64,000 nucleotides of DNA, from assembly GCF_029952525.1 (NCBI RefSeq), contig NZ_JASAOF010000001.1:62001-126000 (forward strand), read 5' to 3'. The notes beneath the pieces were generated by a model that saw only the letters and a program-made list of their open reading frames with translations, made no database searches and was not told the DNA's origin. The position numbers were made by a program, and so were the translations under genes. This DNA comes from Saccharopolyspora ipomoeae. GTDB taxonomy: Bacteria > Actinomycetota > Actinomycetes > Mycobacteriales > Pseudonocardiaceae. Positions 6,756 to 25,223 of the stretch are shown one piece after another. The stretch's first letter is position 1. Every line of letters begins with the position of its first letter.

Positions 6756-7286
6756 GTGCGCAGCGTTGTCCGGGGACGGATCAAGACCCGCTTCGACCGA
6801 TGGGACCGGGACGGCCGGGGCGGCCTTCGCCGGGACGACTTCGAACGCGAGGCCCTGCGCATCGCCGCGGCGTTCGACGCACCGCCGGAGGCACCGGAAT
6901 CGGTGCGGCTGCGGGAGGCGCTGCGCGGGCTCTTCGAGCTCTGCGCCGATCACGCCGGGGTCTCACCCGACGCCGCGATCAGCGAGGTGCAGTTCCTCAA
7001 GATCTCCGAGGACCTGATCTTCGAGCAGGGCGAGGCCGCGTTCAACCGGGCCCTGCGGCCCGTCGCGGCGGGTGTGATCGGCGTGTGCGACGGGGACGGG
7101 GACGGCCGGATCGACCGCGCGGAGTTCGTCCGGTGGCTCACGGCCCTCGGACTCGACGACGCCCAGGCCGGGGCGGCCTTCGAGCACGTCGTCGGCGGCG
7201 CGGGGACGCTGTGCCTGGACGAACTCCTCGCGGCGATCCGCGACTACCACTACGGCCGGCTCGACGTCGAGCTCATCGCGGGCTGA
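6756..7286 (+). CDS. EF-hand calcium-binding protein, calerythrin-like
   Basis: A 176-residue acidic cytoplasmic protein with at least two good EF-hand loops: D17-R-D19-G-R21 ending in D28, and DGDGDGRIDRAE near residues 112-123; two further sites look degenerate. Length and arrangement match calerythrin, the four-EF-hand protein known from Saccharopolyspora erythraea. It likely binds Ca2+ as buffer or sensor. The start is GTG at 6756; the upstream 100 bases are unusually AT-rich for this genome and probably hold both divergent promoters. The 3' end overlaps the convergent ligase gene by 37 bases. Confidence 0.85.
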   Translation: MRSVVRGRIKTRFDRWDRDGRGGLRRDDFEREALRIAAAFDAPPEAPESVRLREALRGLFELCADHAGVSPDAAISEVQFLKISEDLIFEQGEAAFNRALRPVAAGVIGVCDGDGDGRIDRAEFVRWLTALGLDDAQAGAAFEHVVGGAGTLCLDELLAAIRDYHYGRLDVELIAG

Positions 7287-8869
7287 CCTGCGGCGACGTG
7301 GTCCGCCGCCAGCGCCGTGACGGTGCGGCGGCAGACCTTGCCGGTCGGGGCCAGCGGGAGTTCCGGCAGGCGCAGCAGGTACTCCGGCAGCTTGCGCCGC
7401 TCCAGCCCCCGCTCGTGCTCCAGGAACTCGGTGAGGTCGGACAGCGACAGCTCGGCGCTGCCGGCGGCCTGGCTGACGCAGGCGCACAGCCGCTCCCCCA
7501 GCTCCTCGTCGGGCACCGGCACGCACGCCACGTCCACCACGGCGGGGTGCGCGCCGAGCTCGCGCTCCACCTCGGCCGGGCTGATCTTGAACCCACCGCG
7601 GGAGACGACGTTCTCCAACCGTCCCAGCACGTGCAACCGGCCGAGCTCGTCGAGCACGCCGCGATCACCGCTGCGCACCCACCCGCCGCGCGTGCGGTAG
7701 CGCTGGTCGAGGCCGGGATCGGCGACGTAGCTCAGCGGCGTCATCGGCCCGCGCGCCCAGATCTCCCCGGCCTCACCGGGGCCGACGTCGCAGCCGAGCT
7801 CGTCGACGATCCGGATGTCGGCGACCTCCGGGTCGGGCATCCCGGTCCCCGACCCGTTCCCGGTGCCGGTGAGCGCCGTGTGGCAGTTGATCCCGTCGGA
7901 CGAGCCGTAGACGGTGATGACCCGGGCGCCGAACCGGCGGGTGCAGGCGCGCGCGGTGACGTCGGACAGCGGTGCCGCGCTGGAGACCACGGCCCGCAGG
8001 CTCGACAGGTCCTCCCCCGGCTCGGCGGGGTGCTCGGCGAGCCGCCGCAGCATGGTGGGCACGCCGAACAGGTGGGTGGGCCGGTGCCGGGTGACCGCGC
8101 GGAGCGCCTCGCCGGCGTCGAACCCGCGCTGCAGCACGGCGGTCGCGCCGAGCGCGGCGATGCCCACGTGCGTGACCAGCGACCCGTACCCGGAGGAGAG
8201 CTTCATCAGCACCAGCGCGCGCATCGGCTCGTCGCCGCCGCCGAGCTCGCGGACGTAGTTGGCGCGCCCGCCGACCATCGCGTTGTGCGAGTAGGCGATC
8301 ATCTTCGGCTCGGACTGCGACCCGGAGGTGACCAGGATCCGCGCCGGGGCTTCGGGGTCGAGAGCCGGTGGGTACCAGTCGGTTCCGCTGTCGAGGTCGT
8401 CGAAGTGGAAGGCACGGCGCAGCGTCGGCAGCTGCGAGGCGACCTCGACGTCGGCGGGATCGGTGAAGATGCCCGCGGCGGCGCGGGATCGGCCGAGCAG
8501 GCTGCGGGTGTCCTGGGCACCGGACCCGTCCGGGTAGGGCAGGGCGACCGCCCCGATGGCGGCGACGGCGAGTTCGGCGACGATCAGGCGCCAGCCGTTG
8601 GGCATCCGGATGCCGATGATGTCGCCTTCGCCGAGGCCGTCCGCGCTCAGGGCTGCGGCAACCCGCCGCACCTCGTCGTCGAGGTCCCGGTAAGCGAGCA
8701 CGACCTCGCCGTCGATGACGGCCTCGCGGTCGGGGTGCGCGCGCACCCGCTCGACGAACAGGTCGTAGACCGGCCGGTCGGGGCACAGACCCTGCTCGAC
8801 CCAGTGCCTGCGCAGTTCGGCGGGCACCAGGTCGCGGATCTCGATGCCGTTGCGGGACGTCCAGGTCAT
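7250..8869 (-). CDS. Acyl-AMP ligase / acyl-CoA synthetase family enzyme (last gene of the minus run)
   Basis: A 539-residue ANL-superfamily protein, expected to activate a carboxylic acid as the adenylate and pass it to CoA or another thiol. Visible are YGSSDGINCH in place of the usual YGxTE motif, a C-terminal RSGDRGVLDELG hinge region, and the catalytic lysine in APTGKVCRR. The P-loop is unusual: TSGSQSEPK instead of the common TSGTTGxPK. It is joined to the upstream CoA-transferase gene by an ATGA overlap. Together with that transferase, a methyltransferase and a second ligase, it suggests activation and transfer of an acyl building block in the 7.2-24.4 kb island. Substrate unknown. Confidence 0.85.
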   Translation of the reverse strand: MTWTSRNGIEIRDLVPAELRRHWVEQGLCPDRPVYDLFVERVRAHPDREAVIDGEVVLAYRDLDDEVRRVAAALSADGLGEGDIIGIRMPNGWRLIVAELAVAAIGAVALPYPDGSGAQDTRSLLGRSRAAAGIFTDPADVEVASQLPTLRRAFHFDDLDSGTDWYPPALDPEAPARILVTSGSQSEPKMIAYSHNAMVGGRANYVRELGGGDEPMRALVLMKLSSGYGSLVTHVGIAALGATAVLQRGFDAGEALRAVTRHRPTHLFGVPTMLRRLAEHPAEPGEDLSSLRAVVSSAAPLSDVTARACTRRFGARVITVYGSSDGINCHTALTGTGNGSGTGMPDPEVADIRIVDELGCDVGPGEAGEIWARGPMTPLSYVADPGLDQRYRTRGGWVRSGDRGVLDELGRLHVLGRLENVVSRGGFKISPAEVERELGAHPAVVDVACVPVPDEELGERLCACVSQAAGSAELSLSDLTEFLEHERGLERRKLPEYLLRLPELPLAPTGKVCRRTVTALAADHVAAGQPAMSSTSSRP

Positions 8870-10350
8870 GCGAACTCCCAGGGTGGTTGCGGTGCGGTGT
8901 GCGTCGTGCGGGTCAGCGCGCGCTTGAAGCGCGGGTCGGCGGCCAGTTCGCGCAGATCGGTGCGCACGGGCGTGCCGTCGGGCAGGACGGGCCGGCCGTC
9001 GCGCCACACGAACCGGCCGGAACCGCTGGGTTTCCGGGGGATCACGCCCGCCGCCGAGTACAGCGAGCTGTCCACGCGCGCGCCGCGCCCGGTGCGCTCG
9101 CGGCGCAGCAGCGCAGCGAGAACACCCGTGGCGCAGACGAGTCCGCCCATGATGTCGGTGAGCGTCATCAGCGACGGAGCGCGGTCGGGCGCGGCCAGCC
9201 CGCTGTGGGCCTGCACGAGGAAGTCGGTGCCCAGCGGCGGGTCCGGCCAGGGCAGCGGCGCCCAGCCCGACGACCACGCGTGCACGAGCCCGGGCCGCGC
9301 GCGGGCGAGGTCGTCGGCGTCCAGCCCGTACTGCTCGGCCCTCCCGGGCGCCCAGTTGTGCGCGAACGCGTCGGAACCCGAGACGAGTTCGCGCAGTTCC
9401 TCCTTCCCCGCAGCGGTTTTCAGATCGATCTCGGTGACGCGCTTGCCGTCGTTGAGCACCCGGAAGCGCGCCGAGACGTCCCCCGAGATCGGCGGGATGC
9501 CGCGCATCGGGTCGCCGCCCGGCGGCTCGACGCGGACGACGTCGGCGCCGAGCATCTCCAGCACGTGCCCGACCATCGGGCCCTGGATCCGGCGGGTGGA
9601 CTCCACGACGACGATCCCCTCCAGCGGTCGCCCTCCCGTCCACGGGTGGGAGGGCGCCCCGCCCGGCAGGTCGTGGAGGGTGACCGCCGGGACGCGGGTC
9701 GGCTGGTCGCGCTCGGCGCGGACCGGGAGCACGCTCACCCCGGCGTCCTCGGCGGCCCGCAGCAGCTCGCGGAGCGGGAACCGCCTGGTGCGGGTGAGCA
9801 GTCCCGGGGGCAGCGAGCAGGAGGCGGTGGCGAAGCGCTGCTGGAACGGCCACCAGCCCGCAGCGATATCGGCCTGCTCGGCGTCGAGGGCGCTCCAGAA
9901 CCGCTGCCACCCCTCGGGGTGCAGGGTTTCCAGCTCGAATCGGATCCCTTCGCGCGACCGGAACGGCGGGCGCTCGCCGGGTTCCCAGCGCTCGTCCCAG
10001 TCGTCATCGGTGGTGGCCACCGCGAGGTACTGCCCGACCGCCAGCAGCGCGGCCTGGGCGACCGAGGTGCGGGCCGACTCGATCCGCGCCCCGCGTGCCC
10101 GGGCCAGCTCGGCGGCCAGCGACGCCTGCGCGGCGAGCACCCCGGCCACCGCCGAGGCGTAGTCGACCCCGAGCCTGCGCGGGCCTCCGGACGCGCGGCC
10201 GTGGACGTGCATGATCCCGCAGGCGGCCTGCACCGCGGACTCGTCGCGCAACGTCATCTCCACCGGACCGGCCCAGTCCACGTCGCACCAGACCTCGGGC
10301 GCCACGCCGAGCTCGCGCAGCAGCCCGGCGGCGACGTGCTCGGCGATCAC
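8866..10350 (-). CDS. Class III (CaiB/BaiF-like) CoA-transferase with apparently permuted lobes
   Basis: A 494-residue member of the CaiB/BaiF family with odd domain order. Residues from about 255 onward look like the normal N-terminal half: PLEGIVVVEST, GADVVRVEPPGGDP, then TDFLVQAHSG with the expected catalytic Asp, and GRGARVDSSLYSA near the end. The first 230 residues instead resemble the part that normally follows (a GARIESARTSVAQAAL helix, then a WQRFWSAL-like small-domain region). The C-lobe therefore precedes the N-lobe. The GTG start has GGAGGAAG 4 bases upstream and overlaps the methyltransferase stop by 4 bases. Its likely task is moving CoA between acids or altering an acyl-CoA made by the neighbouring ligases. 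Confidence 0.75.
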   Translation of the reverse strand: MIAEHVAAGLLRELGVAPEVWCDVDWAGPVEMTLRDESAVQAACGIMHVHGRASGGPRRLGVDYASAVAGVLAAQASLAAELARARGARIESARTSVAQAALLAVGQYLAVATTDDDWDERWEPGERPPFRSREGIRFELETLHPEGWQRFWSALDAEQADIAAGWWPFQQRFATASCSLPPGLLTRTRRFPLRELLRAAEDAGVSVLPVRAERDQPTRVPAVTLHDLPGGAPSHPWTGGRPLEGIVVVESTRRIQGPMVGHVLEMLGADVVRVEPPGGDPMRGIPPISGDVSARFRVLNDGKRVTEIDLKTAAGKEELRELVSGSDAFAHNWAPGRAEQYGLDADDLARARPGLVHAWSSGWAPLPWPDPPLGTDFLVQAHSGLAAPDRAPSLMTLTDIMGGLVCATGVLAALLRRERTGRGARVDSSLYSAAGVIPRKPSGSGRFVWRDGRPVLPDGTPVRTDLRELAADPRFKRALTRTTHTAPQPPWEFA

Positions 10351-11114
10351 GGCTTCCTCCCCTGCACCGAGTGCAGGACGCTGGACGAGGCGCGGAATCC
10401 CGGATCGCGCATCACCTCGCGCACCCGCACCAGTTCCGCCTCGGTCATCCCGGCGGCCAGCAACCCGGCCCGCAGGTGGTGGGTGTGGTTGAGCTGCAGC
10501 GCCAGCTCGGGCGATCCGGCGTGCCGGGACCCGATGTGCGGGCGCGGGTCGATCTCGACCAGACCGGCGGCGCGCATCGCGGCGGCGGCCTCGCGACCCC
10601 ACTCCGGATCGCCTCCCCGGGAGCGCATGTGCTCGGTCTTGGCGGCGAGGAACTTCTCGTACAGCGCGGTGTCGGCGGCCAGCAGCACCGGCTCGTAGGA
10701 GGTGTCGAGCTCGTCCACCTGCAGCCAGCCGCCGGGCTTGAGCGCTCGGATCATCTTGTCCAGCAGCGCTTCTCGCTGCGGGAACTGCTGCAGAAGCATC
10801 CGCACCGCGATGAGGTCGAAGTGCTCGTCCGGCAGCGGGTCGGTGGTGATGTCGTGCACCGCCGCGGTCAGGTTCGGGTGCGGCTCGATGTCGACGGGGG
10901 CGAGGTCGGTGGCCAGCACGCTCCCGGTGGGCGCGACCCGGTGAGCCAGCCAGCGGGCGATGCTGCCGCGCCCGGCGCCGACGTCGAGGCACCGCCAGCC
11001 GTCGCCGACGCCGAGGGCTTCCAGCCGGGCGGTCGTGATGCCGTCGTAGGCGGCGGCCAGGCAGCGGTGCTGCTCCGCCACGCGCGGCTCCTCGTCGGTG
11101 AAGGCGTAGGTCAT
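10347..11114 (-). CDS. SAM-dependent methyltransferase (class I)
   Basis: A 255-residue Rossmann methyltransferase. Motif I is CLDVGAGRGSIARWL near residues 43-57, the acidic end of strand 2 is VLATDLAP, motif IV is HFDLIAVRMLLQQF, and ALKPGGWLQVDE follows. It overlaps the upstream ligase gene (ATGA) and the downstream CoA-transferase (GTGA), so it is in the middle of the minus-strand operon. The acceptor (O, N or C) cannot be read from the sequence; a small-molecule tailoring role fits the context. Confidence 0.88.
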   Translation of the reverse strand: MTYAFTDEEPRVAEQHRCLAAAYDGITTARLEALGVGDGWRCLDVGAGRGSIARWLAHRVAPTGSVLATDLAPVDIEPHPNLTAAVHDITTDPLPDEHFDLIAVRMLLQQFPQREALLDKMIRALKPGGWLQVDELDTSYEPVLLAADTALYEKFLAAKTEHMRSRGGDPEWGREAAAAMRAAGLVEIDPRPHIGSRHAGSPELALQLNHTHHLRAGLLAAGMTEAELVRVREVMRDPGFRASSSVLHSVQGRKP

Positions 11115-12694
11115 GTCCACCGCCCGGTCCCGTAGGTGTCGGTGCTGCCGGTGAGCCGGTCGAGCAAGGCGAGCCTGCGGACCTTTCCGGTCCCGGTGCG
11201 CGGCACGTCGTCCCAGGTCAGCGCCACGGGATCGGCCATCTCCGGAAGTCCGTGGCAGGCGTGCCGCCAGGCGTGCTCCGACAGCGTCCCGTCGGCGGTG
11301 ACCACGACCGGCAGCGGCGGGTGCTCGGCGCGGGCGAGCAGCACGCACTCCAGGGCGTGCGGGAGCCGTTCCTCCAGGGTGTCCTCGGTGGCCAGGCAGC
11401 TGCCTTCGGCGACGCAGTCGACCTCGCGGTCCACGAGGTGCACGCTGCCGTCGCGTCCCCGGATCGCGAGGTCCCCGGTGTTCCACCACTGCCCGCGCTT
11501 CTTGGCCGCGTAGCGCTCGGTCTCGCCGAGGTAGTCCAGGCACAGCGCGCGGGTGCGGGCCAGCACGAGCCCGGCCTCGCCGGGCCGGACCGGGTGGAAG
11601 GTGGCCGGATCCACCACGCGCAGGCGGGTTTTCACCGGGACCGGCCGTCCCGCCGGGTGCGCCCGGGCGCGGCGCCGCTGCACCGAGGAGCGGTGGTGCA
11701 GCCGGAACGTCAGCGGTCCCGTCTCGGTCTGGCCCCACCCGTCCAGCCACACCGGGTGCTTGCGGCCGCTGGCCCGGAGGTAGGCGCGCAGCGTCGGCGG
11801 GTGCACGGCGTCGTAGGTGCTGATGAACAGCCTGACCCGGCGGAACGGGTTGGCCAGCCGCGCGGTCAGCGGCTTGAACCGCACGAACGCGGAGGGCAGA
11901 CCTTCGAACACGGTCGGCGGGTGCTCCCGCAGCAGCGGGTCGACCCGGTCGGGGTCCTGGGAGGTGAGCACGACGATCTCGGCGGGCGCGGCGGCGATGG
12001 TCGCGGCGGTCCAGCTGAAGGTGCGGCCGTGCGCGTAGCCGCTGGCGGTGGCGACCACGTCGTCGCGGCGCAGCCCCACGACCGGCGTCGGCAGGGCTTC
12101 GAAGCGGGCGAGGTTGCCGATGATCGTGCGGGTGGAGTGCACGACGAGCTTGGGGACGCCGGTGGTGCCCGAGGAGTGCGTGATGATCAGCGGCGCGTCG
12201 TCGTCGCGGCGCTGCGGCTCGGGCGGGGCGCTGCCGCGCAGCTCGTCGAGGGAGACGGTGCCGGGCGCGGGCGCGGTGCTCACCGTCGTGCGGGCGAAGG
12301 AGGCCAGGTCCACGCCCTCGGCGACGCCGCGGCCGAGCACCCGCGGCGAGGTCACCAGCACGTCGGGTTCGAGGCGTTTGAGCAGCGCCGAGGCCGTTTC
12401 GGCGGACAGGTGCGGGGAGAGCTTCGCCGGGACGGCCCCGGCGCGGATGGCGGCGCAGGCCAGCAGGTCGACGTCCCAGTGGTCGTCCTTGAGGATGGCC
12501 ACCCGCCCGCCGGGCCGCGCACCCGCCGCGACCCACCAGCCCGAAGCGGCGCGCACCAGTTCGGCCAGCGCGGTCACGTCGTGACGGAGCCCGGTCTCGG
12601 GTGCGATGTCGAAGGGCCGGTCGAGGTGGATCGTCGTGGTGCGCCCTCGGGCGGAGGCCTGCTCGAAGAGCACACCCATGTCGTGCGGTAGCAA
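11111..12694 (-). CDS. AMP-dependent synthetase/ligase
   Basis: A 527-residue ANL-family adenylating enzyme. The phosphate-binding THSSGTTGVPK motif lies near residue 175, WGQTETG replaces the classic YGxTE, QWWNTGDLA gives the hinge-side aspartate, and RTGTGKVRRLALL holds the catalytic lysine. Its N-terminal domain is shorter than in acetyl-CoA synthetases. The start is a TTG at 12694 with AAGGAG 6 bases upstream; the next ATG is 15 bases inside and has no such site. It is distinct from the downstream ligase (7250-8869), so the operon carries two different acid-activating enzymes. Confidence 0.86.
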   Translation of the reverse strand: MLPHDMGVLFEQASARGRTTTIHLDRPFDIAPETGLRHDVTALAELVRAASGWWVAAGARPGGRVAILKDDHWDVDLLACAAIRAGAVPAKLSPHLSAETASALLKRLEPDVLVTSPRVLGRGVAEGVDLASFARTTVSTAPAPGTVSLDELRGSAPPEPQRRDDDAPLIITHSSGTTGVPKLVVHSTRTIIGNLARFEALPTPVVGLRRDDVVATASGYAHGRTFSWTAATIAAAPAEIVVLTSQDPDRVDPLLREHPPTVFEGLPSAFVRFKPLTARLANPFRRVRLFISTYDAVHPPTLRAYLRASGRKHPVWLDGWGQTETGPLTFRLHHRSSVQRRRARAHPAGRPVPVKTRLRVVDPATFHPVRPGEAGLVLARTRALCLDYLGETERYAAKKRGQWWNTGDLAIRGRDGSVHLVDREVDCVAEGSCLATEDTLEERLPHALECVLLARAEHPPLPVVVTADGTLSEHAWRHACHGLPEMADPVALTWDDVPRTGTGKVRRLALLDRLTGSTDTYGTGRWT

Positions 12695-12710
12695 CGCGAA
12701 CTCCTTGTCG

Positions 12711-14003
12711 TCAGACCGGAACCGGTGAGCCGAGCCTGCTGAGCGTGCGGGAGACCGCCAGCGCGGCGGTGCGCACGGCGCCTTCGCTGTGCGGGCGCAG
12801 GTTCACCCAGTCGCCCGCGTAGTCGACCGGCCCGAGCTCGCGGGACCGGAAGCCGGGCAGCGCGGCGAGCGCGGCCGGGGTGCACTCGGGCAGCGCGTGC
12901 CGGTGCCGGTGCACCCGGGCCTCGCCGCCGATCGGGAGGTAGCGCCGCACGGCCTCGGTGACCCGCGCGATGACCTCGTGGTCGGGGGCGTCGAGCAGCG
13001 CCGGGGTGTTCTCGACGTTGACCACGGCCGTGACCAGCCCCTTCCCCGCCGGGACGCGGCGCGGGTGCTTGAGGTGGTCGAAGAGGATCGCGGCGAGGAA
13101 CTCCTCCTCGGCGCGCGGGGTGATCACCAGGTAGGGCTTGCCGGGCAGCTCGACCGGGGCGTCGAGCAGGAACGGCACCTTGATCGCCGAGGAGAACGTG
13201 CACGCCGCCAGGAACTCCGCCTCCACCGCGGGAGCGCCGGGGTGCAGCCGGGCGGCGATCGGGGCGGGCACGCACAGCAGCACCTGCCGCGCGGTCACCA
13301 CGTCCTCGCCCGCCCGCAACCGGGCACCCGTCCCGTCGGCGACGACCTCGCTCACCTCCTGGCCGGTGACCACGTCGAGGTCGACGGCCATGCGGCGGCA
13401 CGGGGTGTCCATCCCGTCGCGGTAGGTCCGCCACGCCGAGGCGGCGCCGACGGCGCGCTGCATTCCCAGAAGCACTGCGGCCGAGGACTTCTCGGGATCC
13501 CACAGGCAGAACGAGGCGGCGGGCTGGAGCAGGTGGTCGCCCACGTCGCGGTGGTGCCGGCGCGCCAGCTCGGCGACGGTGGTGTCGCCGAGCTCCGAGT
13601 CCTCGGGGCGTTCCGGGTCGACGGGGACGCCCAGCCGCGGCAGCTCCAGCCGTGCGCGCACCGACAGCCCGGCGCCGGTGACCAGCCCGCGCGCGGACCC
13701 GAAGCCCAGGTGCGCCCGCCCGTCCCGCCACATCCCGATGGGACGGCCGATCGGCGGCACGTCCTCGGCGCGGAACCCCAAGCGCCGCAGCAGGTCCCAC
13801 GTCGCCGGGTAGCCGTGCGGGGAGATCTGCTCGGCACCGGTGTCGACGGCGTAGCCGTCACCGCGCGCCGTGGCCATCCGCCCGCCGACCTGCCCGGCCG
13901 CCTCGTAGACCCGCACCTCCAGCCCGGCCCGCTGCAGCTCGTGGGCGGCGGTGAGCCCGGCCACGCCTGCGCCGACGACGGCGACGTCCAGGTCGCGGCT
14001 CAT
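12711..14003 (-). CDS. FAD-dependent amine oxidase / protoporphyrinogen-oxidase-like protein
   Basis: A 430-residue flavoprotein. The N-terminal dinucleotide-binding fold VAVVGAGVAGLTAAHELQ is followed by VRVYEAAGQVGGRM, the hallmark of the monoamine oxidase/HemY superfamily. A substrate domain follows, and the C-terminal GDWVNLRPHSEGAV segment is the usual second FAD contact. It is probably not the heme-pathway enzyme, because it sits in an operon with a UbiA prenyltransferase and acyl-activation genes. Oxidation or desaturation of the pathway product is more likely (inference). It overlaps the UbiA stop by 4 bases. Confidence 0.82.
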   Translation of the reverse strand: MSRDLDVAVVGAGVAGLTAAHELQRAGLEVRVYEAAGQVGGRMATARGDGYAVDTGAEQISPHGYPATWDLLRRLGFRAEDVPPIGRPIGMWRDGRAHLGFGSARGLVTGAGLSVRARLELPRLGVPVDPERPEDSELGDTTVAELARRHHRDVGDHLLQPAASFCLWDPEKSSAAVLLGMQRAVGAASAWRTYRDGMDTPCRRMAVDLDVVTGQEVSEVVADGTGARLRAGEDVVTARQVLLCVPAPIAARLHPGAPAVEAEFLAACTFSSAIKVPFLLDAPVELPGKPYLVITPRAEEEFLAAILFDHLKHPRRVPAGKGLVTAVVNVENTPALLDAPDHEVIARVTEAVRRYLPIGGEARVHRHRHALPECTPAALAALPGFRSRELGPVDYAGDWVNLRPHSEGAVRTAALAVSRTLSRLGSPVPV

Positions 14004-17191: not shown

Positions 17192-17410
17192 GCTGAACCA
17201 ACCCCCTGTAAGCGTTCAGAACCTAGATCGAACTTAACGAGGGCTGATCTTTTTCGACGTGTGGAGGAGCCAACTTCACTCCTTCCAGTGAGACGTCGTT
17301 TTTCCGGCAGCAGAACGACTTCCGAGCGCGGTGGTGGTCTGTACAGTCGCCGGGGCCGGGTTCACCGGCGCCTCTCCTCCCACCCATCGGTCCACAGAGG
17401 ACGTCGTGCG
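17192..17410. promoter_or_regulatory. Divergent promoter region of the two island operons
   Basis: This 219-base gap separates the minus-strand operon (aminotransferase onward) from the plus-strand operon (Gfo/Idh onward). It is less GC-rich than its flanks around 17200-17310 and must hold both promoters. I find no convincing -35/-10 pair, palindromic operator or small gene. No pathway-specific regulator is encoded inside the island itself. Confidence 0.5.
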
Positions 17411-18373
17411 ATGCTGCAACCATTCGTGATCGGACTCGGCCGCGCCGGTTCCGGCCTGCACCTGCGCGTGCTGGCGCAGGCCCGCGAGGTCGCTCCGGGG
17501 CTGTTCGCCGGCGGGCGCGTGGTGGCCTGCGACCCCGACGCGAGACGGCACCGGCCGGACGTGACGCTCGTCGACTCGATCGGCGCCGCAGCGGCGACGC
17601 TCGACCCGCACCGCACCGTGGTGCACGTCTGCACCCCGCCGCAGGGGCGCGCCGGGGTCCTCGCCGAGCTCGCCGAGCACGGGTTCCGCCGGGTCATCGC
17701 GGAGAAACCGCTGGCGACGAACCTGGAGGAGCTCGCGGCGATCGAGTCGATCCGCGACCGGCACGGCATGGACATCGCGGTGGTGAGCCACTGGCTGGAG
17801 TCCCGGCTCACCGAGCACCTGACCGGTCTGGTGGCTCGTGGCGGACTCCGCTCGGTGACCTTCGACCAGGACAAACCGCGGTTCACCCGCTCGTGCGCGA
17901 CCACCGGGCACCCGACCGCGTTCGACGTGGAGCTGCCGCACTCGCTGGGCGTGGTGCTGCGGCTGGCGGGTTCCGCCGAGATCACCGAGGCCGAGTGCGC
18001 CGACATGCGCGTCGCCGACACGGTGCTGCCGAGGCTCGGCAGCGCCCGGCTGGTCCTCGACCACGCCGGGGGCGTGCGAAGCGAGATCCGCTCGGATCTG
18101 ACCGCGCCGATCCGGCGCCGCCGCATCACCCTCGAACTCGACTCCGGGCGGGTCGTCGGCCACTACCCGATCGGTGCCGACGACGACCACGCGCAGCTGG
18201 AGATCAACGGCCGCCGGGTCGTCTTCCGGGACGACGCGCTGACCCGCTGGATGGTGCGCGCCTACGTCCACCACCACCGGCCCGCGGGCGAGCACGGCAC
18301 GTTCGACCTGCACGCCGACATCATCCGCCTGCTCACCACCGCCAAGGAGAGGACGCTCGCGCATGCACGCTGA
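17411..18373 (+). CDS. Gfo/Idh/MocA-family oxidoreductase
   Basis: A 320-residue NAD(P)-dependent dehydrogenase. It begins with VIGLGRAGSGLHLRVL, a slightly modified GxGxxG nucleotide motif, and carries the family signature IAEKPLATNLEEL near residues 96-108 with the catalytic-lysine region. Family members oxidise a ring hydroxyl of a sugar, nucleotide sugar or cyclitol. It is the first plus-strand gene and overlaps the following isomerase-like gene by 11 bases. With the aminotransferases across the promoter it could produce a 3-keto sugar for amination (inference from the WbpB/WbpE and NtdC/NtdA precedents). Confidence 0.85.
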   Translation: MLQPFVIGLGRAGSGLHLRVLAQAREVAPGLFAGGRVVACDPDARRHRPDVTLVDSIGAAAATLDPHRTVVHVCTPPQGRAGVLAELAEHGFRRVIAEKPLATNLEELAAIESIRDRHGMDIAVVSHWLESRLTEHLTGLVARGGLRSVTFDQDKPRFTRSCATTGHPTAFDVELPHSLGVVLRLAGSAEITEAECADMRVADTVLPRLGSARLVLDHAGGVRSEIRSDLTAPIRRRRITLELDSGRVVGHYPIGADDDHAQLEINGRRVVFRDDALTRWMVRAYVHHHRPAGEHGTFDLHADIIRLLTTAKERTLAHAR

Positions 18374-19202
18374 CCAGCTCGTCGGCATCGGGGACGAGGC
18401 CGGCGCCTCGCTGCCGGAGCAGATCGCCGCGATCACCGAGCTCGGCTGGCCCGGCATCGAGCTGCGCACCGTCGACGGGGTGGCGCTGGCCGAGCTGGAC
18501 TCGTCCCGCTTCCAGCGCGTCCGCCGCGCGGTGCAGGCGGCCGGGCTGCGGGTCGTCTGCCTGGACTCGCGGATCGGCAACTGGTCGCGGCCCATCACCG
18601 CTGACCCGGCCGACGACCTGCGCGAACTCGACGTGCTGGGCGACCGGTGCGCGGCGCTGGGCACCCGGTACGTCCGGATCATGTCCTACCTCGCCGACGG
18701 TCTCGACGAAGCCGAGTGGCGGGAGCGCGTGCTGGAGCGCATCGCCCTGCTGGGCGACCGCGCGGCCCGGCACGGCGTGGTGCTGCTGCACGAGAACTGC
18801 TCGGGCTGGGCGGGTTCCGACCCGGAGCGGATGCTGCGGCTGGTCGACGCCGGTGGCCCGTGCCTGCGGCTGCTGTTCGACGTCGGCAACGGGGTGGAGC
18901 ACGGGTACGACGCCTTCGAGGTCCTGCAGCGGGTCCTGCCGCACGTCGAGCACGTGCACGTCAAGGACGCCGTCGGCGTCCCGGGCCGGGCCGAGTACGT
19001 GCTGCCCGGCGACGGTGACGCGCGCGTGCACGACTGCCTGCGGCTGCTGCTCGACCACGGCTACAGCGGAGCCCTGTCGCTGGAACCGCACCTGGTCACC
19101 CGGCCGCACGAGGGCGTGGCCGGGTCCGACCCCGGACCGTTCCTGCGGGCAGGGCGGCGGTTGGAGCGGATGCTGCGGACCGCGCCGACCGGTGTCGCGT
19201 GA
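18363..19202 (+). CDS. Sugar phosphate isomerase/epimerase-type TIM-barrel protein
   Basis: A 279-residue protein of the xylose isomerase-like/AP endonuclease family 2 barrel. The probable metal ligands are E in LLHENCSG, D in LLFDVGNG, H in HVHVKDAV and E in LSLEPHLV, in the usual order. Relatives include IolE/IolI-type inosose enzymes and 3-keto-sugar epimerases. The ATG at 18363 lies inside the previous gene's end, and the gene overlaps the next start. The likely role is isomerising or dehydrating the keto-sugar or keto-cyclitol formed by the upstream dehydrogenase. Confidence 0.82.
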   Translation: MHADQLVGIGDEAGASLPEQIAAITELGWPGIELRTVDGVALAELDSSRFQRVRRAVQAAGLRVVCLDSRIGNWSRPITADPADDLRELDVLGDRCAALGTRYVRIMSYLADGLDEAEWRERVLERIALLGDRAARHGVVLLHENCSGWAGSDPERMLRLVDAGGPCLRLLFDVGNGVEHGYDAFEVLQRVLPHVEHVHVKDAVGVPGRAEYVLPGDGDARVHDCLRLLLDHGYSGALSLEPHLVTRPHEGVAGSDPGPFLRAGRRLERMLRTAPTGVA

Positions 19203-20467
19203 TGGGCTTCTCCGACGACGATTGCGCGCTGCTGCTGGAGCTGCTGGAGCTGCCGACCGTCAGCCCGCTGGAGACCTCCGATCCGCCGCAGCTGTGGCAG
19301 GCCCAGCGACGCTACGCCCGCGCGGCCGAGGAGCTGGGGTTCCGGGTGCTGCACCACCGCCCGCCCGATCCGGGGGTGCTCGACCGCGACGACGTGCCCG
19401 AGACCGTGCGGCGCGCGGGGCCGGAATTCCTCGACGCGCAGCCGAGCCTGCTCCTGCGGCTCGGGCCGGAACTGCCGCGATCCGAGACGGTGATGTTCAA
19501 CGTGCACCTGGACACCGTCGCCGGTCTCGAACCCGTCGGGCTGCGCGACGGCCGGTTCACCGGTCGCGGCGCGATCGACGCGAAAGGCCCTGCGGTGGCA
19601 CTGCTCTCGGGGATCCGGGACGCACTGCCCGCTCTGCGCGACGACGTCGCGGTGCTGCTGCAGGTCGTCTCCGGCGAGGAAGGCGGGGCGATGGGCACCT
19701 ACGGCACCCGCCCGCTGGTCGAGCAGGGCCACGTGGGGCGGCTCAACATCTGCTGCGAACCCACCGGTCTGCGGTACCTGCCTCGCTCGACGGCGTCGAT
19801 GACCGCGCGGGTGCGGGTGGACGGGCAGGGCTCGATCGACGACCGGCCCGACGCGGGGCACAACGCGACCGCGCTGCTCGGGTTCCTCGCCCAGCACCTG
19901 GCGTCCCGGCTGGACCCGACCGACCGGCCCGGCCGGCTCTGCGTCGCCGGGCTGCGCACCGGCGACCTGCACAACCGCGTCTACGGGTCCGGGCAGCTGC
20001 TGCTCAACCTCTCCTACGCCACCACCGCCGAGGGCGCGGCCGCCGAGAAGGAGCTGCAGCGGGCGTTCGAGGACGGCATCGCGGAGTTCCGCGAGCGCTT
20101 CTCGGGCAGCAGGGAGTTCGCCCGAACCGCCCGGGACGCGGCGGCCATCACGCACCTGGACTGGGTCAAGCGCGGCCTGCCCTGCCTGGACGACACCGAC
20201 CCGTGGGCCGAGAACCTGCTGGAACGCGCGGGCGCCCGGCGCTGGCCCGACGAGGAACCGGCCTTCACCTGCGACGCGATCTGGATGCACGACCTGCCCG
20301 GCTGCTTCACCGCCGTGCTCGGCCCGGGTCGCCTCGACACCAACCACGCCCACGCCGACGGCGAGCACGCCGAGCGCGCGGAGCTCGAGGAGTTCGCCGC
20401 CGTCGTCTCGGCGCTGCTCACCGAGTTCGCGCGACACCGCACCGGAGAGGAACACGATGCAGCCTGA
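19199..20467 (+). CDS. M20-family (ArgE/DapE-like) metallohydrolase
   Basis: A 422-residue hydrolase related to acetylornithine deacetylase and succinyl-diaminopimelate desuccinylase. The metal motifs NVHLDTV near residue 101, GRGAIDAKGP near 122-131 and SGEEGG near 160 are intact. It may remove an acyl group from an intermediate or form an amide in reverse; it is unlikely to be the housekeeping lysine or arginine enzyme given its operon. Starts at GTG 19199 or ATG 19202 are both possible; they overlap the previous stop. The next gene follows with an 11-base overlap. Confidence 0.83.
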   Translation: MMGFSDDDCALLLELLELPTVSPLETSDPPQLWQAQRRYARAAEELGFRVLHHRPPDPGVLDRDDVPETVRRAGPEFLDAQPSLLLRLGPELPRSETVMFNVHLDTVAGLEPVGLRDGRFTGRGAIDAKGPAVALLSGIRDALPALRDDVAVLLQVVSGEEGGAMGTYGTRPLVEQGHVGRLNICCEPTGLRYLPRSTASMTARVRVDGQGSIDDRPDAGHNATALLGFLAQHLASRLDPTDRPGRLCVAGLRTGDLHNRVYGSGQLLLNLSYATTAEGAAAEKELQRAFEDGIAEFRERFSGSREFARTARDAAAITHLDWVKRGLPCLDDTDPWAENLLERAGARRWPDEEPAFTCDAIWMHDLPGCFTAVLGPGRLDTNHAHADGEHAERAELEEFAAVVSALLTEFARHRTGEEHDAA

Positions 20468-21506
20468 CACCGCGACCGTCCCCCACGAACGCCTGCACGG
20501 CCTGGTCGCCGAGCGGTTCCGCGCGCACGGCGTGCCCGAGCGCCGCGCCGGCCTCGCGGCCTCGGCGCTGTGCCACGGCGACCTGTGCGGCTTCGACTCG
20601 CACGGCGTGTTCAACCTGCCCCGCCTGTACCTGCCGCTGCTGGAGTCCGGCCGCGCCGACCCCGCCGCCGAACCGGTCGTGCGGTCCGACCTCGGCGCCT
20701 GCGCGACGGTCGACGCCGATCGCGCGCTGGGCCTGTGGGCGGCGGCGGAGCTGATGGACGACGCGATCGCGCGGGCCCGCGAGCACGGGCTCGGCCTGGT
20801 GTCGGTGCGCGGCGCGACGCACTTCGGGTGCGCCGGGTTCCACGCGGCCCGCGCCGCCGAGCAGGGCATGATCGGCGTCGTCGCGAGCAACTGCGGCGGT
20901 CAGCGCATCGCCCGGCCGCCGCTGGGCGCGCTGCCGCTGCTGGGCACCAACCCGCTGGCGGTGTCGGCGCCCGCGCTGCCGGAGCACCCGTTCCTGCTGG
21001 ACATGAGCACGACCGTGGTGCCCACCGGCAAGGTGCGGGTCGCGGCGGGAGACGGCGCGACGATCCCGGAGGGCTGGCTGGCCGACGACTCCGGGACCGC
21101 GGTGACCGATCCGAGCGCCCTCGACGGCGGCACGGCGCACCTGCGCTGGCTCGGTGGCGACCCGGACACGGGCGCGCACAAGGGTTTCGGGCTCGGTCTG
21201 GTCGTGGAGCTGCTCGCCGCGCTGCTGTCCGGATCGGCGCTGGGACCGACCCCGGGGGCCGTGCTGGGCGACTCGGGGCGCGACGACGACATCGGCTACT
21301 TCCTGCTGGCGATCGACGCCGAGCGGCTGCGTCCCGGCTTCGCCGGGGCCGCGCGGGCGATGTTCGGCGCGGTCCTGGACTGCCCGCCCGAGGGCCAGGT
21401 GCACTACCCGGGCTGGCACGAGGCCGAACGCGCGATGCGCCGTCGCCGCGACGGCGTTCCGGTCCGGGCCCGGCTGCTGGCCGAGCTCGGCGAGGTGGTC
21501 GGCTGA
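20457..21506 (+). CDS. Ldh2/malate-L-lactate dehydrogenase-family oxidoreductase
   Basis: A 349-residue NAD(P)-dependent dehydrogenase of the Ldh2 type (malate/L-lactate, ureidoglycolate, 2,3-diketogulonate and cyclic imino-acid reductases). Visible are FDSHGVFNLPR near residues 45-55, ATHFGCAGFH and LLDMSTTVVPTGKV. It reduces or oxidises a 2-oxo/2-hydroxy acid or a cyclic imine. GGAGAGG precedes the ATG. The pathway substrate is not evident; a uronic-acid-like or keto-acid intermediate would fit with the sugar genes around it. Confidence 0.85.
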   Translation: MQPDTATVPHERLHGLVAERFRAHGVPERRAGLAASALCHGDLCGFDSHGVFNLPRLYLPLLESGRADPAAEPVVRSDLGACATVDADRALGLWAAAELMDDAIARAREHGLGLVSVRGATHFGCAGFHAARAAEQGMIGVVASNCGGQRIARPPLGALPLLGTNPLAVSAPALPEHPFLLDMSTTVVPTGKVRVAAGDGATIPEGWLADDSGTAVTDPSALDGGTAHLRWLGGDPDTGAHKGFGLGLVVELLAALLSGSALGPTPGAVLGDSGRDDDIGYFLLAIDAERLRPGFAGAARAMFGAVLDCPPEGQVHYPGWHEAERAMRRRRDGVPVRARLLAELGEVVG

Positions 21507-22396
21507 TGCGCCGCGTGGGAGTCGTCGGGCTCGGCGCGATCTCCGCCTACTACCTGGCCGCCGTCGAGGCCCGGGGCTGGGAGCTGGCCGCGGTCTGCGA
21601 CCTGCGACCGGACAGGCTGCGCGGGTTCGCCCCGCACGTCGGCTGCTTCACCGACCACCGGGCGCTGCTGGGCTCGGTCGAGCTCGACGGGCTGATCGTC
21701 ACCGCCCCCAACGACGCGCACGCCGCGGTGTGCCGGGACGCGCTGCGGCGCGGAGTCCCGGTGTGCGTGGAGAAACCCCTCGCGGTGTCTCTCGACGACG
21801 CGCGGGAGCTCGTGGCGATCGCGACCAGGTCCGGTGTGCCGCTGCTGACCTCGTTCCACCGCCGCTACAACGACAACGTGCGCCGGCTGCTCACCGAGGT
21901 CACCGCGCGCGGGGGTGCGACGGCGCTGCGGGTGCGCTACCTGGAGCGCATCGAGGAGCACCTCGGCGGGGACACCTGGTACCTCGACCCGGTTCGCTGC
22001 GGCGGCGGGTGCGTGGCCGACAACGGGCCGAACGCCTTCGACCTCGTGCGGCTGTTCCTCGGTGACGTCGACCTGGTCCACGCGGTGGTCAAGGAGGAGG
22101 GCGGCACCGACCGCCAGGCCGTGATCGAGCTCGAATCGGCCTCCGGCGTCCCGGCGGTCGTGGAGCTGGACTGGTCGCATCCCGGCGAGACCAAGGACGT
22201 CGAGATGCTGCTGGCCGACGGGACGCGGCTGCGCGCCGACATGCTGGCCGGGCACCCCGGTTTCAAGAACTCGCTGTGGCACGAGTACCACGGCGTGCTC
22301 GACGAGTTCGAGACGGCGGGGACCGATCCGGGCGGGCTCGCCGCGCTGCGGCTGGTCCACGACACCTACCGGTTCTGCCAGGAGGGAACGCGGTGA
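21506..22396 (+). CDS. Gfo/Idh/MocA-family oxidoreductase (second)
   Basis: A 296-residue dehydrogenase with an N-terminal RRVGVVGLGAISAYYL nucleotide fold and the CVEKPLAVSLDDA signature near residues 89-101. Its substrate domain has LERIEEHLGGDTWYLD and CVADNGPNAFDLVRLFLG, the latter holding the usual catalytic Asn-Asp/His region. It is shorter than the first Gfo/Idh protein and not closely similar, so it should act on a different position or intermediate. Its ATG overlaps the preceding stop by one base. Confidence 0.87.
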   Translation: MRRVGVVGLGAISAYYLAAVEARGWELAAVCDLRPDRLRGFAPHVGCFTDHRALLGSVELDGLIVTAPNDAHAAVCRDALRRGVPVCVEKPLAVSLDDARELVAIATRSGVPLLTSFHRRYNDNVRRLLTEVTARGGATALRVRYLERIEEHLGGDTWYLDPVRCGGGCVADNGPNAFDLVRLFLGDVDLVHAVVKEEGGTDRQAVIELESASGVPAVVELDWSHPGETKDVEMLLADGTRLRADMLAGHPGFKNSLWHEYHGVLDEFETAGTDPGGLAALRLVHDTYRFCQEGTR

Positions 22397-22842
22397 ACCC
22401 CGACGAGGACGGTCCGAAGAGGACGCTGCAGGCGCGCGTGGTCAAGGTCCTGGTGCACCACCGCGCCGAGCGCGGCATGTCGCTGGAGCCGCACGCGAGC
22501 CGCTGCGTCCGCGCCGGTGACGTGCACGAGTTGGTCACCACCGACCACACCGACACCGCCGAGGGCGCCCGCATCGACCGGGTCGCGTTCCTCGGCTTCG
22601 CGGAGTTCGACCGCGGCGGCGTGCTGGACCGGGGCGACGAGGTGTGGTTCGGGGACCGCCGGGTGGGCACCGTGCTGGGCTTCGACGCCTGCCACTTCCC
22701 GAACCACTACAACGTCCTCATCCACGCCGAAACCCCGCTCAGCGGCGCGGATCTCCACCTGCGCCCGGAGGCGCGCCTGAGCTTCAGCCAGCCGCTAGAG
22801 GTGGCTGATGTTCTCCCCGGCGAGCTTGCCCCGGGTGTCTAG
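22393..22842 (+). CDS. Small protein of unknown function, last gene of the plus operon
   Basis: A 149-residue soluble protein starting at GTG 22393, overlapping the previous stop by 4 bases. It has no signal peptide or membrane segment. Notable stretches are KVLVHHRAERGMSLEP, HELVTTDHTDTAEGAR and VLGFDACHFPNHYNVLIHAE; the histidines and aspartates could bind metal. The predicted pattern is mainly beta strands. I do not recognise the family. Its fixed place behind five catabolic or biosynthetic enzymes suggests a pathway-specific accessory protein. The last 48 bases overlap the convergent dehydrogenase gene. Confidence 0.75.
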   Translation: MNPDEDGPKRTLQARVVKVLVHHRAERGMSLEPHASRCVRAGDVHELVTTDHTDTAEGARIDRVAFLGFAEFDRGGVLDRGDEVWFGDRRVGTVLGFDACHFPNHYNVLIHAETPLSGADLHLRPEARLSFSQPLEVADVLPGELAPGV

Positions 22843-24060
22843 CAGCAGGCATCGCGAGGCGACCAGGCGGACCGGGTCGTAGCACGCGTGGTCCTGCAGC
22901 AGGATCGCCAGGTCGGCCTCGCGCAGCCCGTCCTCCACGTGCTCGACGCGGCGCAATCCCCTTTCCCCGACGGCGAATTCGGGGACGTTCGGGTCGTGGT
23001 AGACGACCTCCGCGCCGGACTTCAGCAGGCCGGAGGCCACGGGTAGCGCCGGCGTCTCGCGGGTGTCGGCGATGTCCGGCTTGTAGCTCGCGCCCAGCAG
23101 CAGCACGCGGGCTCCCTCGACGGCGATCCCCGCGTCCTGCAGCAGCCGCTCGGCGCGGTCCACCACGTGGTGCGGCATCCGCTCGTTGACCTCGCGCGCC
23201 GCGCTGAGCGTGCGGAAGTCGAAACCGGCGCTGACCCCGGCGGTTTCGAGGTAGACCGGGTCCACGGGGATGCAGTGCCCGCCGACGCCGGGGCCGGGCT
23301 GGAACGGCGCGTAGCCGAAGGGCTTGGTGCCCGCGCAGTGCAGCACGTCCCACACGTCGATGCCGGTCCGGTCGCAGAACAGCGCGACCTCGTTCACCAG
23401 CGCGATGCTGACGTAGCGGTAGGTGTTCTCCAGCAGCTTGGCCATCTCGGCCTCGCGGGTGCCGCGCGAGACCACGAGGGTGTCGATGAAGCGCCCGTAG
23501 AACGCCACGCCGTGCTTGGCGCACAGCGGGGTCACGCCCGCCACCACCTTCGGGGTGTTGCGGACGCCGAAGACCTCGTTGCCGGGATCGATGCGCTCCG
23601 GCGAGTAGGCGAGGTGGAAGTCCTCGCCCGCGACCAGACCGCTGGACTCCTCCAGGATCGGCCGGACGACGTCCTCGGTCGTGCCCGGGTACGAGGTGGA
23701 TTCCAGCACCACCAACGTGCCGGGGCGCAGGTTCTCGCCCACCGAGCGCGCGGCGGCGCGCACCGCGCTCAGATCGGGGGCGCCGTCGGTGAGCCCGGTC
23801 GGCACGCACACCACGACGGCGTCGGCCTCGGCGATCACCGCCGGGTCGGTCGTGGCGCGGAACCCCGCGGCCGCCATGTCGGCGACCGCGGAGTGCGGGA
23901 CGTCGGCCACGTGCGAGCGACCCGCGCCCAACCCCGCCACGACCTCGGCGGAGATGTCGAAACCGGCTGTCCTCATGCCGATTTCGTGCGCGCGGACCAG
24001 CAGCGGCAGGCCGACGTATCCCAGCCCGACCACGACCAGGTCGGTCCTCGCCTCACTCAT
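22795..24060 (-). CDS. Nucleotide-sugar 6-dehydrogenase (UDP-glucose/UDP-GlcNAc/ManNAc dehydrogenase family)
   Basis: A 421-residue two-Rossmann dehydrogenase that oxidises the C6 hydroxyl of a UDP-sugar to a carboxylate with 2 NAD+. VVVGLGYVGLPLL is the N-terminal nucleotide site, EAEMAKLLENTYR lies in the central helix and the catalytic cysteine is C263 in PGVGGHCIPVDP. The LLGASYKPDIADTRETPA stretch opens the C-terminal domain. The TKPFGYAPFQPGPGVGG context is closer to the WbpA/UDP-HexNAc type than to UDP-glucose types. Its ATG overlaps the stop of the secreted-protein gene upstream. It likely supplies a uronic-acid sugar to the same pathway. Confidence 0.9.
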   Translation of the reverse strand: MSEARTDLVVVGLGYVGLPLLVRAHEIGMRTAGFDISAEVVAGLGAGRSHVADVPHSAVADMAAAGFRATTDPAVIAEADAVVVCVPTGLTDGAPDLSAVRAAARSVGENLRPGTLVVLESTSYPGTTEDVVRPILEESSGLVAGEDFHLAYSPERIDPGNEVFGVRNTPKVVAGVTPLCAKHGVAFYGRFIDTLVVSRGTREAEMAKLLENTYRYVSIALVNEVALFCDRTGIDVWDVLHCAGTKPFGYAPFQPGPGVGGHCIPVDPVYLETAGVSAGFDFRTLSAAREVNERMPHHVVDRAERLLQDAGIAVEGARVLLLGASYKPDIADTRETPALPVASGLLKSGAEVVYHDPNVPEFAVGERGLRRVEHVEDGLREADLAILLQDHACYDPVRLVASRCLLLDTRGKLAGENISHL

Positions 24061-24365
24061 GCCGAGAAGCTGCCCGTACCCGGGGGGACGTGCGAGCCGT
24101 GCCCGGGCGGGACCTGGAGCCCCGGCGTCATGCAGAACGGGTCGCCGTACACCGTGATCACGCGATCGGTGTCGTTGACGATCACGTGCGAAGCCAGCGG
24201 GAGCTTGTGGCAGCCCTGCGGGTCCTCGAACTTCGTCAGCGGCTGGAGCTCGGTCTCGAACACCGTCACCCGGTTCGACGGCTCCTGCGCTCCCGCGAGA
24301 CCGGCACCGCCCATCGCCAGCGCACCGGTGGCCAGGACGACCGAAGCAACGCGCACCATTCTCAT
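24057..24365 (-). CDS. Small secreted protein, unknown function
   Basis: A 102-residue protein with a clear signal peptide (basic start, hydrophobic core ending in GGAGLAGA and probable cleavage after AGA-Q near residue 26). The mature part, about 76 residues, has two cysteines (GCHKLP and FCMTPG) that could form a disulfide, and a Gly/Pro/His-rich tail. The ATG at 24365 follows GGGAAGGG. The stop overlaps the nucleotide-sugar dehydrogenase ATG (ATGA), so both are in one transcript, an unusual pairing. No family recognised. Confidence 0.7.
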   Translation of the reverse strand: MRMVRVASVVLATGALAMGGAGLAGAQEPSNRVTVFETELQPLTKFEDPQGCHKLPLASHVIVNDTDRVITVYGDPFCMTPGLQVPPGHGSHVPPGTGSFSA

Positions 24366-24632: not shown

Positions 24633-25223
24633 ATGATGCCCCATTTCGGGAAGAAGTCAGCACTTTTCGGCGCGACCGCAGCACTGGCGGCCGCGCCGCT
24701 GCTCGGCGGTCTCCTGACCGCGCAGGCCGCCCCGGCCGCGCCCGACAAGGCGCTGCTGACGTGCGACATGACCGGAACGGCCCAGTTCTCCCCGGCGCTG
24801 TCGGGGAACCCGTTCGGCGCGGCCACCACGATGAAGGTCGAGGGCGAAGCCATCGGCTGCACGCCCTCCGGGAGCTGGGCCGAGGACGTCGAGAGCGCGA
24901 CCTTCAGCGGTGACCTCTCCGGCCGGATGTCGTGCACCTCGCTGCCGCGCGACGTCGGCGGGGACGTCGACATCACCTGGAAGTTCAAGGACGGCAGCAC
25001 CGAGACCAGCAAGGCCAACTTCTCCCTGAAGCTGGAGGGCAACCCGCTCCGGCCCAGCCAGGGGGTCAGCGGCGCGTTCGTCGGCGAGACCGTCGACGGC
25101 GAGTTCCCCGGCACCGAGCACAAGGGCACCGGCAAGTTCGACCTGGCCTCCGCCGCGGGCGGCTGCCTGTCCGGCGGCCTCTCGGAGCTGGACTTCGGCG
25201 GCAAGTACGAACTGAGCCGCTGA
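24633..25223 (+). CDS. Secreted protein of unknown function, tandem paralogue 1
   Basis: A 196-residue exported protein. The signal peptide (KK start, hydrophobic ATAALAAAPLLGGLLTAQA) likely ends near residue 30. The mature protein, about 165 residues, has four cysteines (TCDMTG, IGCTPS, MSCTSLP, GGCLSGG) and looks mainly beta-stranded with repeated acidic/Thr/Gly-rich strands. GAAGGAG precedes two possible ATGs (24633, 24636). About two thirds of residues match the downstream paralogue; the core MSCTSLPRDV plus DVDITWK is nearly identical. No enzyme motif is visible and I do not recognise a named family. Confidence 0.85.
   Translation: MMPHFGKKSALFGATAALAAAPLLGGLLTAQAAPAAPDKALLTCDMTGTAQFSPALSGNPFGAATTMKVEGEAIGCTPSGSWAEDVESATFSGDLSGRMSCTSLPRDVGGDVDITWKFKDGSTETSKANFSLKLEGNPLRPSQGVSGAFVGETVDGEFPGTEHKGTGKFDLASAAGGCLSGGLSELDFGGKYELSR

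Follow-up and report, generated by a model that had tools for sequence, protein, structure and literature searches.

We analyzed a 64,000-nucleotide stretch of the genome of Saccharopolyspora ipomoeae (contig NZ_JASAOF010000001.1, positions 62,001 to 126,000; the whole stretch is termed the window) and describe here a biosynthetic gene island that it contains. The genome measures 6.6 Mb, and the nearest relative found was Saccharopolyspora flava, whose UbiA protein is 93% identical. Gene calls place most of the island in two divergent runs. The minus-strand run, from 17191 down to 7250, comprises degT2 (16025..17191; PF01041, 6.4e-104) and degT1 (14913..16025; PF01041), both for pyridoxal phosphate-dependent aminotransferases, ubiA, for a membrane prenyltransferase (14000..14923; PF01040, 6.7e-18), fad, for a flavin amine-oxidase/PPO-like enzyme (12711..14003; PF01593, 3.6e-37), acl2, for an AMP-forming ligase (11111..12679; PF00501, 5.3e-43), mt, for an S-adenosylmethionine-dependent methyltransferase (10347..11114; PF08241, 1.1e-12), coaT, for a family III coenzyme A (CoA)-transferase of 494 amino acids (aa) (8866..10350; PF02515, 9.8e-57), and acl1, for an acyl-CoA ligase that resembles PtmA3 and QbsL as a partner of coaT (7250..8869; PF00501 and PF13193). 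The plus-strand run, from 17411 to 22842, comprises gfo1, for a Gfo/Idh oxidoreductase (17411..18373; PF01408, 5.3e-6), tim, for a xylose-isomerase-like TIM barrel (18363..19202; PF01261, 4.6e-31), m20, for an M20 metallo-amidohydrolase (19199..20467; PF01546, 2.6e-15), ldh2, for a malate/lactate-type dehydrogenase (20457..21506; PF02615, 2.3e-93), gfo2, for a second Gfo/Idh oxidoreductase (21506..22396; PF01408, 1.1e-21), and a gene for an all-beta DUF6917 protein (22393..22842; PF21891, 8.2e-55), which is the signature of the cluster.

Three further genes border these runs. The nucleotide-sugar dehydrogenase gene nsdh (22795..24060, minus strand; TIGR03026, 391 bits for a cut-off of 189.8) converges on the plus-strand operon, tail to tail, with a 48-base overlap with the DUF6917 gene. 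On the other side, a plus-strand gene for a calerythrin-type EF-hand protein of 176 aa (6756..7286; PDB entry 1nya, 2.3e-55) meets acl1 tail to tail with a 37-base overlap. Together with a minus-strand gene for an exported 100-residue protein of predicted beta-gamma-crystallin-like fold (24057..24359; 47 family members), the island totals about 17 genes, and third-position G+C is 0.93 to 0.96 across fifteen of them. An earlier note on this DNA had proposed a biosynthetic cluster with acyl activation, a prenyltransferase, and sugar-type aminotransferases, with overlapping genes on the minus strand that point away from six on the plus strand. The gene calls reproduce this layout, with a contiguous minus-strand run of eight genes (7250-17191) instead of nine, and domain matches confirmed the families named, namely, two AMP-binding ligases, a CoA-transferase, a methyltransferase, a flavin adenine dinucleotide (FAD) oxidase, UbiA, two DegT, two Gfo/Idh, a TIM barrel, M20, and Ldh2. 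The terminal nucleotide-sugar dehydrogenase was also rightly recognized, its strand being corrected to minus, and the plus-strand gene listed as unknown belongs to DUF6917 (PF21891). As proposed, none of the 17 genes encodes a polyketide synthase, nonribosomal peptide synthetase, glycosyltransferase, or regulator; no transporter gene was found among them either. The thioacid-type ligase/CoA-transferase pair, the calerythrin, and the exported crystallin-like protein had not been foreseen.

UbiA matches (E ≤ 1e-10) were found in 85 of the 297 genomes of the family, and 40 neighborhoods were taken from 39 of these 85 genomes. All fourteen genes from acl1 to the DUF6917 gene stand in the window's order in 30 of the 40, with protein identities of 45 to 96%, a degree of conservation beyond chance that bears out the proposal of a cluster. 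The other ten comprise rearranged loci where an acl1-coaT-mt block adjoins degT1 (L056 to L058), loci interrupted by contig ends (L074 and L075), reduced or rearranged loci (L076 to L079), and a locus with ubiA and a weak acl2 match only (L080). The earlier note had held that homologues scattered among relatives would speak against a cluster; synteny in other actinomycetes revealed strong co-occurrence instead. Its statement that no cluster with this gene set had been described also stands for the literature searched (an open-access subset), where none matched.

Scanning species genomes with a DUF6917 alignment yielded 275 pattern matches and 234 confirmed relatives, from which 80 loci were kept. 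They include members of Saccharopolyspora, Amycolatopsis, Lentzea, Kutzneria, Saccharothrix, Nocardiopsis, Streptomonospora, Actinomadura, Streptosporangium, Nonomuraea, Glycomyces, Streptomyces, Kitasatospora, and Streptacidiphilus. The loci were scored within stretches of at most 20 kb, in which the degT1 and degT2 queries can cross-match. Core genes were gfo2 (80/80), ldh2 (78/80), degT2 (76/80), and gfo1, tim, m20, and degT1 (75/80 each), followed by ubiA (65/80) and fad (60/80). Four genes that often fall outside the stretch scored lower (acl2, 27/80; coaT, 28/80; acl1, 26/80; mt, 2/80); acl2 was present in 13 of 14 such genomes when these were searched whole, and wider stretches place the missing genes nearby. 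In the Nocardiopsis, Actinomadura, and Streptosporangium types, the cluster genes form a single operon on one strand. Only the window's own genome carried DUF6917 in a phylum-wide draw of 396 genomes, against 36 of 200 genomes drawn from the order of a Nocardiopsis (the second order), so the cluster is enriched in certain lineages, and the phylum-wide draw seems poor in carrier lineages. Some genomes hold two clusters, and relic copies also exist: those of L188 (G246), L189 (G132), and L195 (G260) have lost several genes and retained calerythrin. Two accessory families recur, an AhpD/carboxymuconolactone-decarboxylase-like protein in 26 stretches (e.g., L043:17241-17681) and a second methyltransferase in 23 (e.g., L055:9983-10555).

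We then analyzed the sequences of the enzymes. The two Asp-rich motifs of prenyltransferases are present in UbiA, with D64, D65, D71, D206, and D210 kept in 101/101 sequences and D208 variable. The metal site of Tim is intact in 100/100 sequences, the three catalytic positions of Ldh2 are invariant in 111/111, and the Gfo lysines are kept in 106/106 (Gfo1) and 114/114 (Gfo2). The ligase lysines are likewise conserved, that of Acl2 (A10) in 63/63 and that of Acl1 in 37/38, the remaining row being gapped. Six positions of M20 are invariant in 108/108 sequences; a seventh chosen column is His in 19/108 and perhaps represents the wrong histidine. The closest solved structures to DegT1 and DegT2 are sugar and cyclitol aminotransferases, WbpE among them. 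Nsdh exceeds the cut-off of the general nucleotide-sugar dehydrogenase model; for its best specific models, UDP-N-acetylmannosamine dehydrogenases, the score is below the cut-off. An IspH-related family occurs in four stretches (L077:16425-17636, L078:5531-6481, L079:13599-14405, and L151:2374-3369); the members tested, from L078 and L151, are LytB/IspH (PF02401), and such paralogues within variant clusters fit with isoprenoid supply. L078 also has a major facilitator superfamily (MFS) gene and a different AMP-binding ligase, and LuxR-type genes adjoin L078 and L079. An AHBA/kanosamine-type pathway was rejected, as phosphatase, kinase, and DAHP-synthase are absent from the 17 genes. An allantoin-type M20/Ldh2/TIM set was dropped as well, the best NCBIfam matches of M20 being ArgE, LysW-hydrolase, and DapE, all far below the cut-off.

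The earlier note had regarded the CoA-transferase as permuted. Its PF02515 match falls in two stretches, with the profile start at residues 241 to 432, and this description gives way to that of a two-domain type III CoA-transferase with the layout described for PtmU4 in passages of PMC6006322. Of 58 aligned rows, 56 have the catalytic Asp of the C-terminal domain (Asp399), and two show a gap there. A PtmA3-like synthetase lies within two genes, as acl1 overlaps coaT, and the pair occurs together in 30 of the 40 relatives. The acl1-coaT-mt genes travel as a block in L056 to L058, and mt adjoins acl1-coaT in further cluster types. Beside mt in one locus, L169:11749-12237 gave a subthreshold match to an allene-oxide-cyclase-like barrel (PF18678). 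Among plasmid records, 1,169 had a coaT match and only two, L039 and L040, covered at least 80% of CoaT, both with 42% identity; an acl1 homologue (50% and 40% identical to Acl1, respectively) adjoins the coaT homologue in each. In L040, a plasmid-typed record of Burkholderia multivorans that lists no annotation, the coaT homologue is accompanied by genes for JAMM, ThiS, ThiF-rhodanese, Trp dioxygenase, FAD monooxygenase-type, and aminotransferase proteins, a thioquinolobactin-like set. The S. ipomoeae genome has a single JAMM match (PF14464), outside the cluster and next to a gene for a ThiS-like protein, a carrier identified by eye, that ends in GG-MR; a CysM-like protein is also encoded nearby, again by eye. 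A sulfur carrier and a JAMM protein are thus available in the host. Since a two-domain CoaT next to an acyl-CoA ligase is the layout of the thioacid cassette, we consider, by analogy, that a thiocarboxylic acid or thioester is a likely product of the cluster.

The EF-hand protein of the window aligns with calerythrin (1nya) over residues 4 to 174 and is thus a full-length match. The calerythrin family is present in 99 of 123 stretches of a survey that counts some genomes twice. By a simple test, Ca2+ loop I is intact in 93, loop III in 97, and loop IV in 95 of the 99 members. In the one-operon types, the calerythrin gene is located between the DUF6917 gene and degT2. Strong matches were defined by cut-offs of 190 bits for UbiA and of 110 bits (family) or 90 bits (second order) for calerythrin, fixed after gaps had become visible. 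In the family sample, 81 genomes had a strong UbiA match and 79 a strong calerythrin match, with both in 72, UbiA only in 9, calerythrin only in 7, and neither in 209. Evaluation of distances revealed that 72 of the 83 strong calerythrin matches are located at most 25 kb from ubiA; of the other 11, 2 are at contig breaks adjoining cluster genes, 3 are in relic clusters, and 6 are without cluster genes. In the second order, 33 genomes had strong calerythrin matches and 36 had DUF6917, with 32 having both, the genes being 214 to 476 bp apart. The associated Fisher values ignore phylogeny.

The original calerythrin belongs to this same context. In genome G012, which we take to be the chromosome of Saccharopolyspora erythraea NRRL 2338, the protein matches 1nya at each of 172 residues and is encoded 11 kb from ubiA; its gene adjoins nsdh and the exported-protein gene, bordering the same cluster. 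Another genome, G052, contains two clusters with one calerythrin each. The two copies share 67% identity, copy A being 97% identical to the S. erythraea protein and copy B 85 to 87% identical to those of Saccharopolyspora spinosa and G280. Passages of PMC10574481 describe calerythrin as the first true prokaryotic EF-hand protein, and those of PMC10574481 and PMC4053335 on calerythrin call it a buffer; none of these passages ties it to a biosynthetic cluster.

The exported-protein gene, like that of calerythrin, recurs with the cluster. The model of the protein (predicted local distance difference test [pLDDT], 87.2) gave 17 crystallins among the 50 Foldseek matches listed, with a best crystallin E value of 0.042 and none at E ≤ 0.001. 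By eye, the N/D-N/D-x-x-S/T-S Ca2+ motif of beta-gamma-crystallins is absent from the family, whose consensus in the probable position is N-x-T-D-x-x-V. A tandem pair of similar exported proteins without a Pfam match is encoded farther along the window (24633-25223 and 25538-26134, plus strand). DUF6917, which no paper in the literature searched mentions, is modeled as all-beta (pLDDT, 89.9); fold comparison gave no PDB match at E ≤ 0.001, and sequence profiles gave none even at E 10. A role as the small subunit of a 3-oxo-glycoside lyase, guessed from the Gfo and TIM neighbors, is unsupported, with zero PDB matches by profile (E 10) or fold (E ≤ 0.001).

The divergent promoter region contains a dyad, TTCACTCCTTCCAGTGA (17275..17291), which is a possible operator and occurs once in the window. 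Its left-half motif, picked after inspection, precedes gfo1 in 44 of 110 loci (mean, 1.2, and maximum, 6, in shuffles that move two-base blocks), and a stricter form does so in 20 of 110 (shuffle mean, 0.1; maximum, 1); the motif is hardly present before seven other genes tested. The full pattern, TTCACnCnTTnnnGTGA, occurs four times in the genome and is always intergenic (window 17275-17291; G000 C7:21313, C9:61651, and C22:393313). These sites include the flank of an OmpA-like lipoprotein gene and the gap between LCP-like and polysaccharide-deacetylase-like genes, all named by eye. A regulator unlinked to the cluster possibly acts on the dyad. Iron or zinc boxes were considered and set aside after inspection of promoter sequences by eye, no search aimed at such boxes having been made.

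From the gene set, its order and spread, the conserved catalytic residues, the calerythrin linkage, and the host JAMM gene with its GG-ending carrier, we infer the reactions, substrates, product, and role of calerythrin as follows. The Gfo and DegT pairs, by oxidation and transamination, and the isomerase, M20, and Ldh2 would build an acid of the amino-sugar or cyclitol type; the starting material in many hosts would be a UDP-hexuronate supplied by Nsdh. UbiA would prenylate an intermediate, which the FAD enzyme would oxidize, and Acl2 may activate an acid for coupling. Acl1 would form an acyl-CoA, on which CoaT would exchange CoA for sulfur, delivered by the JAMM and sulfur-carrier proteins of the host, to yield a thiocarboxylic acid; S-methylation of this acid by Mt is possible, judging from the place of mt beside acl1-coaT. 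Calerythrin, as a dedicated member, would have an intracellular role in handling Ca2+ or the product. The cluster probably makes a prenylated small molecule, possibly a sulfur-bearing one. Coelenterazine-binding protein binds a small molecule in a Ca2+-controlled manner, and calerythrin, instead of being a general calcium buffer, could be its bacterial counterpart. It would then act as a Ca2+-gated carrier or sensor of the product, a prenylated amino-sugar thioacid; calcium would govern how this product is stored or delivered or how the cell protects itself from it, and the crystallin-like protein would be an extracellular partner. We consider this extension improbable.

We propose that the island is an uncharacterized, conserved actinobacterial cluster making a prenylated amino-sugar- or cyclitol-type thioacid product, with calerythrin as a dedicated member, and we give this proposal an even chance. 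Several observations weigh against it. No sulfur-carrier gene lies inside the cluster, and neither coaT nor acl1 was found in the stretches of L075 to L079, of which L075 runs into a contig end and L078 has the other ligase and the MFS gene mentioned above. The likeness of CoaT to PtmU4 is one of layout and of the Asp, and tblastn with CoaT reached 2e-78 against L039 and 8e-74 against L040, just short of the network threshold of 1e-80 that delimits the thioacid group in passages of PMC6006322. Acl1 and CoaT could be a CoA ligase and a CoA-transferase of the ordinary kind, or a CoA-dependent racemase, in a sulfur-free pathway joining, as the earlier note suggested, an aminated sugar or cyclitol to an activated acid, with prenylation. 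Several reactions are known for family III CoA-transferases, and the NCBIfam matches of CoaT are ordinary CoA-transferases, all below the cut-off, which is consistent with such a pathway, as is the location of the sulfur-carrier genes outside the cluster. It accords less well with a two-domain CoaT that has the Asp and an adjoining ligase, as in the published cassette (passages of PMC6006322), and with the best full-length relatives found, which are ligase-linked, one of them in the thioquinolobactin-like set. On balance, we find the sulfur-free pathway rather doubtful. A further observation against our proposal is that nsdh is present in only 36 of the 80 DUF6917 loci.

The membership of calerythrin has its own difficulties. 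Loops I and IV of the window protein are degenerate, and because only loop III passes the test, we regard it as a calerythrin homologue whose Ca2+ stoichiometry is doubtful. Moreover, calerythrin had no match in three cluster genomes and is absent from 9 of the 81 family genomes with a strong UbiA match. Calerythrin could be a general Ca2+ buffer, as passages of PMC10574481 and PMC4053335 term it, and both it and the exported protein could be neighbors without a role in the pathway. The 6 of 83 strong matches without cluster genes, the clusters without calerythrin, and co-occurrence tests that ignore phylogeny point in this direction. The calerythrin gene is, however, within the operon in the Nocardiopsis and Actinomadura types and differently placed in the remaining types, its linkage to the cluster recurs in two orders, the two G052 clusters carry separate copies that each agree with the type of their cluster, and calerythrin persists in three relic clusters; we consider this explanation rather doubtful. 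A third possibility concerns the product, which might not be a secreted metabolite but belong to the cell envelope, as a prenylated quinone-like compound or a glycolipid; the combination of acid activation with UbiA and a methyltransferase resembling UbiE follows the logic of menaquinone biosynthesis. The best NCBIfam match of Mt is UbiE (3.3e-12, far below the cut-off), the cluster has an exported partner and broad conservation, the window's island has no transporter, and in one relative a second fad-ubiA pair adjoins an Mce lipid-transport operon. That pair, in Streptacidiphilus fuscans (L170:306-13069), sits beside the Mce/MlaE operon between the cluster halves. An envelope component is nevertheless hard to reconcile with patchiness within families (UbiA in 85/297 genomes; DUF6917 in 36/200), with relic copies and two clusters in some genomes, and with a thioacid-type cassette, and we consider it unlikely.

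The enzymes of the proposed thioacid cluster are of known kinds; what is new is the way they are combined, together with the probable thioacid step and the tight association with calerythrin. The cluster would represent an unstudied compound family, spread across several actinobacterial orders, whose members are predicted to contain a rare group, the thiocarboxylic acid. DUF6917 provides a signature gene for mining genomes for this cluster, and calerythrin gains a biosynthetic context.

Compared with known systems, the sugar-type genes recall the UDP-diaminohexuronate pathway (Wbp), in which a nucleotide-sugar 6-dehydrogenase (WbpO/WbpA), a Gfo/Idh protein (WbpB), and a DegT aminotransferase (WbpE) stand side by side. 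The island differs from it in that its relevant NCBIfam equivalog scores are all below the cut-offs and that nsdh is absent from many island-type loci. The window EF-hand protein is of the same family as S. erythraea calerythrin (1nya), from which it differs by its two degenerate loops; coelenterazine-binding protein (5.2e-9) and the sarcoplasmic Ca2+-binding proteins are weakly similar EF-hand relatives of calerythrin. The DegT and Gfo pairs, TIM, M20, Ldh2, DUF6917, and UbiA of the island are undescribed for thioacid-cassette pathways in the passages available on these. The ligase and two-domain CoaT layout is common to the island and to PtmA3/PtmU4 (thioplatensimycin), QbsL/QbsK (thioquinolobactin), and YtkG/YtkF (yatakemycin), and the island's host resembles the ptm producer in that the capped sulfur-carrier and JAMM genes lie elsewhere in the genome.

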